This document shows, in pieces, positions 15,467 through 18,531 of a DNA stretch of 33,143 nt (position 1 is its first letter; every line of letters begins with the position of its first letter). The position numbers and the translations under genes are program-made. The notes beneath the pieces were generated by a model. That model was not told where the DNA came from. It did no database searches and saw only the letters and a program-made list of their open reading frames with translations. The DNA comes from Elusimicrobiota bacterium. GTDB taxonomy: Bacteria > Elusimicrobiota > Elusimicrobia > UBA1565 > UBA9628. The stretch is taken from contig PLZD01000025.1 in the NCBI GenBank assembly GCA_003151975.1, positions 155,836-188,978 of the forward strand. Direction: 5' to 3'.

Positions 15467-16945
15467 TCATTTCTTTGCTTTCTTGAGAAACGCGATGGCT
15501 TCCGCCCGGGTCTTGACGCGCCCCACCGCTTGGGCCTCGGAGAGGCGTTCGAGCCACTTGCCGATCTCGGGCCCCGCGGGCAGGTCCATGGCCTTCATGA
15601 CCTCGTTTCCGTCGAGCAGGCGCGGCGGGGCCGCCTTGCCGGGCTCGTCCAAAAGGCGCGCGATCAGGAAAGAGACGACTTGCAGGTGGTGTACGGTTTT
15701 GCGGACCTCTTCCGGCTTGAGCTTTGATAATCCCTCGCCGGGCTCGGCACTGGCGACCTTGAGCGCCTTGATGACGCGCTCCTCCGAGAGATAGCTGGCG
15801 TGGTCGGCCCAGCAGACCAGCAAGAGACCCAGGGCATCCTTGCCGAGGTCACGGAAGAAGCGGTAGGCCGCCTTGTCGGTCGGCACGCCCGAGGCCGCCA
15901 GGTTTCCCGGGCGCAAGTGGTTGCTGACGATCGCCGAGACCGTCTCGATGCTCGCCCGAGGGTACTTCAGGCGCTTCATGATCTCGGCGGAGCGTCTTCC
16001 GCCCACGACGTCGTGGCCGAAAAAGCGCAGACGGCCGCCGACTTGCTTGGCGGTCTCGGCCTTGGAGACGTCGTGGAGCAAAGCGGCCAGCATGACCACC
16101 GCCGGAGGCGGCATGAGCTCCTTGATGCGGCCCGCATGCTCCGGATAGACGGCGTCGAGATGGTGCAGAAGATAATCGGCCCGCGCGGCGGTGTCGAGCG
16201 AGTGCTTGAGCACGCCGCCTTCGCCGTAGTAGACCAAAGCGCACTTGCGTGAGGGCTCGAGATCCGGAAAAAGCGCCGTCAACAGGCCGCAGGCGTCCAT
16301 TTCTTTTAGGACCTTTGCGCAGCCGCTCTCGGCAAGCAAAAGCATAAGCTCGGATTGAACGCGTTCGGCGGCGGGCTTGCTGATGCGGTGGCGCACGCCG
16401 GAAATTAAGCGCACGGTCGCCGGCTCGACGGCAAATCCAAGCTGGGCGGAGAGGCGGAAGGCGCGCAGCAATCTGAGCGGATCGCTCTTGAAGAGCTCGT
16501 CGGTCTCCGCGCGCAGTATCTTGTCGCGCAAGTCCTTGAGGCCGCCGCGCGTATCGATGAGGGCCCCGGGAGTCCCGCCATCCAGGGGAACCGCCAAGGC
16601 GTTGACCGTGAAGTCGCGCCGCTCCAGATCCTTCTCGATCGTTCCCCCCGCCAGTTCCGCGAGGTCGAGTTGGCGCACCGTTCCCGGGCCGCGCGGCAGC
16701 ACGAGGCGGAATACCTCGTTGACCTCATCGAGCACGATGAGCTTGACCTTGAAGGAAGCCGCGAGCTGACGCGCGAGGACCGACGCCTTGACCGTCGCAA
16801 GATCAAGGTCGACGACGGGACGGCCCAGCAGGTAATCGCGGACCGCGCCGCCGACCAGATAGACGGGATTCTTGTGCGCGCTCGCGGCGCGGCGCAGCAA
16901 TGCCGCCGCATCGGTGGGCAAGCGCAGCGCCGTCTCGGCGGACAT
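15467..16945 (-). CDS. CCA-adding/poly(A) polymerase family nucleotidyltransferase with HD domain
   Basis: A 492-residue class II nucleotidyltransferase. The head domain has the signature VYLVGGAVRDYLLG (28-41) and the DxD metal site D46/D48. It continues with RRDFTVNALA (109-118) and DPLRLLRAFRLSAQLGF, all typical of CCA-tRNA nucleotidyltransferases and poly(A) polymerase I. An HD domain follows (ALLHDVSK, H291 and D292), so the enzyme probably also has phosphohydrolase activity. Whether it adds CCA, A only, or poly(A) cannot be decided from the sequence. The ATG at 16945 overlaps the acyl-CoA synthetase stop by one base (TGATG); a TTG one codon earlier is less likely. Confidence 0.9.
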   Translation of the reverse strand: MSAETALRLPTDAAALLRRAASAHKNPVYLVGGAVRDYLLGRPVVDLDLATVKASVLARQLAASFKVKLIVLDEVNEVFRLVLPRGPGTVRQLDLAELAGGTIEKDLERRDFTVNALAVPLDGGTPGALIDTRGGLKDLRDKILRAETDELFKSDPLRLLRAFRLSAQLGFAVEPATVRLISGVRHRISKPAAERVQSELMLLLAESGCAKVLKEMDACGLLTALFPDLEPSRKCALVYYGEGGVLKHSLDTAARADYLLHHLDAVYPEHAGRIKELMPPPAVVMLAALLHDVSKAETAKQVGGRLRFFGHDVVGGRRSAEIMKRLKYPRASIETVSAIVSNHLRPGNLAASGVPTDKAAYRFFRDLGKDALGLLLVCWADHASYLSEERVIKALKVASAEPGEGLSKLKPEEVRKTVHHLQVVSFLIARLLDEPGKAAPPRLLDGNEVMKAMDLPAGPEIGKWLERLSEAQAVGRVKTRAEAIAFLKKAKK

Positions 16946-18531
16946 CAAGCCGCTCCGGCGGCTTTTTTCTGCAGCTCTTGCTGACGCAGGGCGCGCTTGA
17001 GGACTTTCTGCAGCGCGTTCTTGGGCAGCGCGTCGACGATCTCGAGGTCGCGCGGGCGTTTGTAGCCGTCGAACTTCGCGCGGCAGAACTTCATGAGCGC
17101 GGCCTTATCGGCGTCGGCGCCCTTCTTGAGGACCACGAAGGCCTTGATCGTCTCGTCTCCGTGCTCGTCGGGGATGCCGATGATAGCGGCTTCCTCGACG
17201 GCCGGGTGCTCCAAGAGCACGGCCTCGACTTGGGCCGAGAAAACCTTGAGGCCCTTGATGATGATCATGTCCTTCTTGCGGTCCCTGATGAAAAGAAAGC
17301 CGTCGGAATCGAGCGCGCCGATGTCGCCGGTCTTGAGCCAGCCGTCCTTGGTGAACGCCTCGCGCGTGGCCTCGGGCAGGTTGTAGTAGCCCTTCATGAC
17401 GCAGTCGCCGCGAACGCAGATTTCGCCTTCGCCGCCGAGCGCGAGCTCGCGCTCGGCGTCGTCGACGATCTTGACCTGCACTCCGTCGATCGTCGTGCCG
17501 ACGCTGCCGACGCGGCGCTGATCCAGCGCGTTGATCGTCATGACCGGCGACGTCTCCGTGAGGCCGTAGCCTTCAAGGATTGGGATGCCGAAGGTCTTCT
17601 CAAAATCCTTCTGGACCGCCGGCGAGAGCGGCGCCGCGCCGGAGATCGCCATGCGCACCTTGCGGAAGAACAGCCACCTGAGGAAGAACCCTTGCAGGCC
17701 GCAGCATTGCTTGGTCAAAACCGAGTAGATCTGCGGCACCGCCGCGAACAGCGTGACGCCGTGCCGGGCCATGAGCTTGAGCCACGGCTTGGCCGGCGCG
17801 ATGGCGGGCGCGATCACGAGCTTGGCCTTCAGGCGCAGGCAGATCAGCACCTTTCCGGTCCAGGCGAAGCTGTGGAACATCGGCAAGATGCAAAGGCCGA
17901 CGTCGGAGGATTTGAGCCCGACTTTTTTCAGCGTCGCTTCGCAATTTGTAATGAAATTATGGTGCGTGAGCATGACGCCTTTAGGATTTCCGGTAGTCCC
18001 GCTCGTGTACAGTATCGAGGCCGTATCCTGTTCGTCGAGTTCGACCCCGATCGCTGTACGATCGGGGTCGAACCCCGCCGACGAAACGGCGGAAAAAGGT
18101 TGTTCCTTGTCCTTGCACTCGTCTTGAGCAGCATCGCTCACCCAAAGGCGGGTGAGCGATGGGGTCTTCGCGGCTGCGCCGCGAAGACCTTTCAAAAACT
18201 CACGCTGGGTGACGATGCCCACGGCACGGCAATCATTAAGCATGTACGCGAGTTCGTCGGCCTTCTGAACCATGAAGTTAATGGGAACCGCGATCGCGCC
18301 GATCCGGTTCAAGCCGAGATAAGCCTGCACGAAGACGATGCTGTTCCGGTGAACGATGGCGACGCAATCGCCCTTCTTGACGCCCGCCGCGGCAAAGCCC
18401 GCGGCCGTTGCCAGAACGCGGCGGCGAAACTCGCCGTAGGTGATGGATTCTTCCGCGGTCGCGTAGGCGGTTTTGTCCCCCGCCTCCAGCGCCGCGTCGT
18501 CGACGAGGTCGTTGAGATTCTTGATGTTCAT
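16945..18531 (-). CDS. AMP-forming acyl-CoA synthetase (FadD-like)
   Basis: A 528-residue ANL-superfamily ligase that activates a carboxylic acid, probably a fatty acid, with ATP and then CoA. Motif A3 is at about 173-190 (ILYTSGTTGNPKGVMLTH), A5 is GYGLTETSPV, A8 includes WLKTGDIGALDSDGFLFI, and the A10 lysine lies in RDLEIVDALPKNALQKVLKR. There is no signal peptide or membrane segment. The linker between residues 115 and 165, just before A3, is encoded by three perfect DNA hairpins described separately. The ATG at 18531 follows the DppC-like permease stop by one base, and the stop overlaps the next start by one base, so it is translated as part of the long operon. Confidence 0.93.
   Translation of the reverse strand: MNIKNLNDLVDDAALEAGDKTAYATAEESITYGEFRRRVLATAAGFAAAGVKKGDCVAIVHRNSIVFVQAYLGLNRIGAIAVPINFMVQKADELAYMLNDCRAVGIVTQREFLKGLRGAAAKTPSLTRLWVSDAAQDECKDKEQPFSAVSSAGFDPDRTAIGVELDEQDTASILYTSGTTGNPKGVMLTHHNFITNCEATLKKVGLKSSDVGLCILPMFHSFAWTGKVLICLRLKAKLVIAPAIAPAKPWLKLMARHGVTLFAAVPQIYSVLTKQCCGLQGFFLRWLFFRKVRMAISGAAPLSPAVQKDFEKTFGIPILEGYGLTETSPVMTINALDQRRVGSVGTTIDGVQVKIVDDAERELALGGEGEICVRGDCVMKGYYNLPEATREAFTKDGWLKTGDIGALDSDGFLFIRDRKKDMIIIKGLKVFSAQVEAVLLEHPAVEEAAIIGIPDEHGDETIKAFVVLKKGADADKAALMKFCRAKFDGYKRPRDLEIVDALPKNALQKVLKRALRQQELQKKAAGAA
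18039..18073. repeat. Perfect 15-bp inverted repeat inside the acyl-CoA synthetase gene
   Basis: Bases 18039-18053 are the exact reverse complement of 18059-18073, with a 5-base loop between. The element encodes residues 154-165 of the synthetase, just before the ATP-binding motif. A 15-bp perfect stem at this spacing is far beyond chance for a window of this size. Confidence 0.9.
18132..18161. repeat. Perfect 12-bp inverted repeat inside the acyl-CoA synthetase gene
   Basis: Bases 18132-18143 pair perfectly with 18150-18161 around a 6-base loop. It lies 58 bases from the 15-bp hairpin and 1 base from the next hairpin, and encodes about residues 124-134 of the same protein linker. Confidence 0.9.
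18163..18189. repeat. Perfect 12-bp inverted repeat with GCA triloop inside the acyl-CoA synthetase gene
   Basis: Bases 18163-18174 pair perfectly with 18178-18189, leaving a three-base loop that reads GCA on the sense (minus) strand. It encodes about residues 115-123. The same triloop is possible in both hairpins at the end of the dppD-like gene. Confidence 0.9.

Follow-up and report, generated by a model that had tools for sequence, protein, structure and literature searches.

The acyl-CoA synthetase gene of an Elusimicrobiota bacterium contains three perfect hairpins within 151 bp, which are best explained, and in our judgement probably so, as scars of serial quasipalindrome-correcting template switches. 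The gene lies in the analyzed stretch of 33,143 nt (the window), which comes from a genome (G000) of 4.64 Mb in 68 contigs. It occupies positions 16945-18531 on the minus strand and encodes an AMP-binding acyl-CoA synthetase of 528 aa (long-chain-fatty-acid--CoA ligase subfamily), matching PF00501 (E 2e-92), PF13193 (E 4e-20) and NF004837 (above cut-off). Relatives at E <= 1e-120 are found in 39/44 genomes of the family.

The three hairpins, whose arms of 15, 12 and 12 bp are 100% complementary, lie in this gene exactly where an earlier, sequence-only reading of the window had listed them. On the coding strand, hairpin 3 comes first (18163-18189, minus strand), with 12-bp arms closed by the 3-nt loop GCA (GGTCTTCGCGGC-GCA-GCCGCGAAGACC) and covering codons 115-123 (GLRGAAAKT). 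One base further on lies hairpin 2 (18132-18161, minus strand; codons 124-134, PSLTRLWVSDA), which has 12-bp arms and the 6-nt loop GCCTTT (CATCGCTCACCC-GCCTTT-GGGTGAGCGATG). Hairpin 1 (18039-18073, minus strand; codons 153-165, GFDPDRTAIGVEL) has 15-bp arms and the 5-nt loop TACAG (GTTCGACCCCGATCG-TACAG-CGATCGGGGTCGAAC). It falls in the variable linker before the ATP/AMP-binding motif ILYTSGTTGNPKG (17977-18015, minus strand), which was assigned by direct reading of the sequence. The sequence-only reading had placed all three hairpins in this linker; that is correct for hairpin 1, whereas the other two are upstream of it, in the ungapped and moderately conserved stretch KGLRGAAAKTPSLTRLWVSD. 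A minor 6-bp hairpin (CCGCCG-TTTCGT-CGGCGG; 18075-18092, minus strand) abuts hairpin 1. Beside the three hairpins, a repeat finder detected in the window no perfect stem of at least 12 bp with a short unpaired loop, and an Rfam search of the hairpin segment returned zero matches up to E 1. A perfect palindrome of 26 bp further along the gene (17433-17458, minus strand; codons 358-367) is composed solely of codons that the genome prefers; it may be due to chance and was set aside.

All 33 close orthologues align without a gap over hairpins 3 and 2, and G115, A119, W130 and D133 in this span are nearly invariant among orthologues. At hairpin 1, the 33 close orthologues all lack residues 159-161, which correspond to 9 nt at the apex, and 39% lack residue 162. 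Judged from this alignment, the extra piece at hairpin 1 is about 9-12 nt (~3-4 residues) at the apex, not the 35-nt hairpin. The suggestion that a palindromic element had been inserted here, with residues 115-165 as the inserted part, is therefore not borne out by the alignment.

Perfect stems are also in excess in the coding DNA of the source genome and of two sister species from another genus (G010 and G016 of genus g11). A 1.17-Mb sample of the source genome (1,033 genes, called with a simple gene caller) contains 10 perfect coding stems of 12 bp or longer, compared with 1.0 expected from codon shuffling (1.8 expected in the count of 12-bp arms by mismatch); three of the ten are the synthetase hairpins. 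Perfect 12-bp arms number 12 vs 0.6 expected in 198 kb of G016 coding DNA and 2 vs 0.2 in that of G010, so that the excess in the source genome and genus g11 is 6-19-fold. Arms of 12 bp with exactly one mismatch stay near expectation in G000 (30 vs 39) and G016 (12 vs 12); in G010 (12 vs 6) and in the other genomes pooled they show a 1.5-2-fold excess, based on small numbers. In the source genome, the number of 8-11-bp stems is close to that expected; in G016, stems are raised from 9 bp upward. Stems that are perfect in excess while one-mismatch arms remain near expectation form the all-or-nothing pattern that arm conversion predicts. Such all-or-nothing perfection has been argued for nematomorph mitochondria, where arm conversion was proposed (PMC6649704). 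In 172 kb of E. coli K-12 we found no coding stem of at least 10 bp, and 18/18 hairpins of at least 11 bp were outside called genes. This sample separates E. coli from G016, while the rate in G000 is too low for a firm difference. Long stems noted in G016 include a 19-bp stem at L174:4698-4741, in frame in a called gene, and a stem of 19-20 bp at L213:11930-11970, outside called genes, to which a related sequence exists in L174.

The comparison of G016 with G010 sets hairpins of one species against non-palindromic DNA of the other. Four coding hairpins of G016 (11-12 bp) align to non-palindromic DNA of G010, and at three of the four sites (L172:19501, L180:13442 and L180:15089) the alignment is gapless at the hairpin. 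For example, G016 has CACGGTGTCGC-CCC-GCGACACCGTG where G010 has CACCGTCTCCC-CAC-GCGACACCATC. At the fourth site, L180:15170 (AACGCCAAAATC-AAG-GATTTTGGCGTT), the non-palindromic counterpart aligns with gaps at the left arm and next to it, and a fifth G016 hairpin, L168:5032, shows gaps too. The change between the sister species is mostly length-neutral with occasional small length changes, and template switching is expected to produce both. In this two-species comparison, the direction would be gain in G016 and not loss in G010, because it is improbable that a perfect stem arose and then decayed at every site. For the hairpins of the window, the nearest orthologue is 68% identical, and ancestral and derived arms are not readable from it.

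The same gene carries hairpins in genus g11. Among 51 orthologues, perfect stems of at least 11 bp near these sites occur, besides the window's gene, only in G010 and G016. The synthetase gene of G010 has 11-bp stems at codons 113 and 155 and one more at codon 44, and that of G016 has a 13-bp stem at codon 111 and an 11-bp stem at codon 153. Four further orthologues have shorter stems, of 8-9 bp, in the linker. Both synthetase hairpins shared by the two species are perfect despite several differing pairs, including three adjacent ones (TCC/GGA vs GGT/ACC). The hairpins of the window's genus and those of g11 look like separate events, because their axes are offset by a few bases between the genera and the synthetase tree, in which deep forks are weak, places the window's gene apart from g11.

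Taken as a process, serial template switching would proceed as follows. A polymerase stalled at an imperfect inverted repeat may copy briefly off the nascent or the opposite strand and then return, overwriting one arm with the reverse complement of the other. A coding quasipalindrome would in this way become a perfect palindrome, mostly of the same length, and the surviving changes would be synonymous ones or those in tolerant residues. Later mutations in one arm could be copied to the other, so that the stem would stay perfect while its sequence drifts. The mechanism and its signature have been described (PMC7202029, PMC8794818, PMC8604942, PMC6649704), and the window's hairpins have the perfect arms and short spacers of that signature, next to the genome-wide excess of perfect but not near-perfect arms. 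Serial template switching had been the second idea of the sequence-only reading, and it is the one best supported, by the perfect-arm excess, the non-palindromic counterparts in a sister species, the matched stem changes in g11 and the ungapped orthologue alignment over hairpins 2 and 3. That switching during replication, and not another copying process, made the hairpins, and did so serially at the synthetase gene, is our inference. Several observations do not fit a uniform process of this kind. It does not explain why a single 151-bp stretch holds three of the ten perfect coding stems of the 1.17-Mb sample, nor the near-coincidence of hairpin sites with genus g11. In addition, the apices that some hairpins share (TACAG, AACG and GNA) are not predicted by simple template switching beyond loop stability.

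Similar events are documented in other systems. In E. coli, quasipalindrome template-switch mutation has been described at the thyA hotspot and in lacZ reporters, and it likewise turns an imperfect into a perfect inverted repeat in one event within coding sequence; there, single hotspots are seen as mutations, whereas here several perfect hairpins are fixed in one gene together with a genome-wide excess (PMC7202029). Arm homogenization in Saccharomyces cerevisiae is alike in its coding arms, template switching, amino-acid changes and parallel events, but concerns strains of a eukaryote, while our cases lie between bacterial species and genera (PMC8604942). Nematomorph mitochondria share perfect inverted repeats in conserved coding sequence, all-or-nothing perfection and gains and losses between species; those palindromes reach 284 bp and are mitochondrial, whereas ours are bacterial and of 11-19 bp (PMC6649704). 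The origin and upkeep of RNA hairpins by template switch also involves multibase compensatory changes from arm-to-arm copying, in RNA genes and not in protein-coding genes as here (PMC8794818). The mechanism is already known; what is new is how dense the hairpins are, that they recur in one gene, and the lineage in which they occur. Covarying stems in genes are usually taken as proof of selected RNA structure, and the synthetase case suggests that, in protein-coding DNA of bacteria, mutational copying can leave just such a pattern, with covariation of several pairs and altered amino acids. A scar-rich lineage would allow measuring how much of protein and RNA evolution is driven by template switching, and asking whether loss of hairpin-cutting nucleases permits such scars.

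The hairpin-cleaving nuclease SbcCD is relevant in this respect. Its nuclease subunit SbcD was found above the curated cut-off in 0/42 genomes of the family, while the same search matched 13/14 control genomes; its absence may let hairpins persist. This absence extends over the whole family and does not parallel how the genomes differ, so it can only be permissive. The large subunit of exonuclease VII, XseA, is present in 40/42 genomes of the family, and loss of exonuclease VII was accordingly rejected as a cause. Loop composition provides a further hint. GNA triloops form stable DNA minihairpins. Counted on either strand, they close 8/16 stems of at least 10 bp in G000 (9% in the shuffled null) and 18/45 stems of at least 8 bp in G016 (13% in the null), although part of the excess in G000 stems from a dispersed repeat family. 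This enrichment hints at hairpin formation at the DNA level. Four hairpins of the source genome, hairpin 1 and three others, have a TACAG loop with different perfect stems (C31:173882-173900, C40:106515-106533, C40:106704-106722 and C62:22520-22538), and the pattern CC-NNN-CG-TACAG-CG-NNN-GG forms perfect hairpins in 4/4 cases in G000 vs 0/7 in other genomes of the family. The recurrence is suggestive, not decisive, because the loops were picked after the fact. A rather speculative extension, to which we give little credence, is that some Elusimicrobiota lineages make hairpins with unusual activity under guidance of the apex. A fixed loop (TACAG or GNA in G000, GGA in G016, AACG in G010) would seed the fold-back, and the flank would be copied into a perfect stem in genic and intergenic DNA alike; the dispersed repeats of family C, described below, would be products of the same machinery.

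A selected structure of the mRNA, or of the nascent strand, that retards translation or transcription ahead of the ATP-binding domain would offer a different account of the hairpins, and the sequence-only reading had considered effects of this sort. The hairpin segment folds strongly (-104.5 kcal/mol vs -66.7 for dinucleotide shuffles, z = -8.1), contains few preferred codons and has low GC3 in the window's gene and partly so in G010 and G016, and genera g1 and g11 both have hairpins in the neighbourhood of codons 118 and 160. Against this, the other 48 orthologues do not fold unusually compared with codon shuffles (mean z about -0.3 to 0, as elsewhere in the gene), in a coarse test that used 35-codon windows not centred on hairpins across 51 orthologues and left the hairpin-bearing genes out of the mean. 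The axes vary between genera, genic GNA loops occur on either strand, and G000 and G016 show no surplus of one-mismatch arms, which selection for structure would favour too. An influence on translation thus finds no support in the orthologue folding test, and we regard selected structure as unlikely. The high G+C of the genome could in principle favour chance pairing, and stems of 8-11 bp in high-GC genomes do occur at about the expected rate. But when synonymous codons of the synthetase gene were shuffled, a single stem of at least 12 bp (loop 3-8) appeared in 139 of 20,000 trials (0.7%) and two or more in none, which refutes chance for the three hairpins jointly and upholds the earlier judgement that their co-occurrence is not accidental; we consider chance practically out of the question. 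An assembly or library artefact through fold-back reads might be suspected in a genome of 68 contigs whose relatives are metagenome assemblies. It is highly improbable, given that the reading frame and the ungapped residues are intact across the hairpins and that G010 and G016, which are separate assemblies, have two hairpins in common with matched changes. Arm rewriting by template switching would itself account only in part for the poor codon usage and the GC3 dip, which exceeds the extent of the hairpins. The window shows a local G+C dip at 17900-18300, together with a drop in GC3 that spans roughly codons 91-210 of the synthetase and reaches past the hairpins.

In-frame insertion of a mobile palindromic element, perhaps truncated since, is the remaining alternative, with the Rickettsia palindromic elements as the parallel drawn by the sequence-only reading. 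Those elements are roughly 150-bp repeated insertions in open reading frames (Ogata et al. 2000, as cited through PMC10969869), and palindromes inside open reading frames are what they have in common with our case. Dispersed palindromic repeats do exist in these genomes. Family C of the source genome (L295-L318 near 1500, e.g. G000:C53:241730-241797 and G000:C26:29917-29959) consists of a variable short-loop hairpin, mostly but not always perfect, followed by the tail CCGCCCGCCGCAGGCGC, with ~20 copies having good tails; hairpin 3 is similar to the first hairpin of one of them (AAAGGTCT...GCA...AGACC). A Hammerhead-II match near one family C copy scored below the gathering score and was dropped. 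Family A of G010 is a palindromic repeat of roughly 70-85 bp with varying stems, of which at least nine copies exist (L281, L283-L285, L287, L288 and L292-L294, near 1501-1573). In several of them the frame stays open and the encoded peptides resemble one another (GAVEAGGRASPAPSG..); the L283 copy, for instance, precedes a LysM-like stretch. The family looks like an Elusimicrobiota analogue of the Rickettsia palindromic elements. The 19-nt core of hairpin 1 also has one exact recurrence elsewhere in the source genome, again as a hairpin. At the synthetase, however, an element of the Rickettsia or MITE type should appear as ~100-150 bp inserted relative to orthologues and in several related copies. 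In the alignment, hairpins 2 and 3 are ungapped and hairpin 1 has no more than ~4 added residues, and a search of the whole source genome at the DNA level found no second copy of the hairpin segment, only that 19-nt core. In addition, the three hairpins share no sequence with one another, and the conserved family C tail is absent from the DNA beside hairpin 3 and missing at the synthetase hairpins. In contrast to the Rickettsia elements, the site has neither such an insertion nor a repeat family; the parallel seems apt for the dispersed repeats of genus g11 and fails at the synthetase. The sequence-only reading had counted orthologues with equal linker length and conserved residues but without palindromy, and a genome without related hairpins elsewhere, against insertion. 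This picture holds in part, as hairpins lie at almost identical codon positions in two orthologues, and the genome has other in-frame perfect hairpins, which are unrelated in sequence. Overall, insertion is quite improbable, and serial template switching remains the preferred explanation. A further palindrome type, family B (CACTTGCCTCCCCCGCGGGGAGGCAAGT), occurs in several places in G010 and G016 (L286, L289, L290, L291 and L171:18377-18405), apparently in intergenic DNA.
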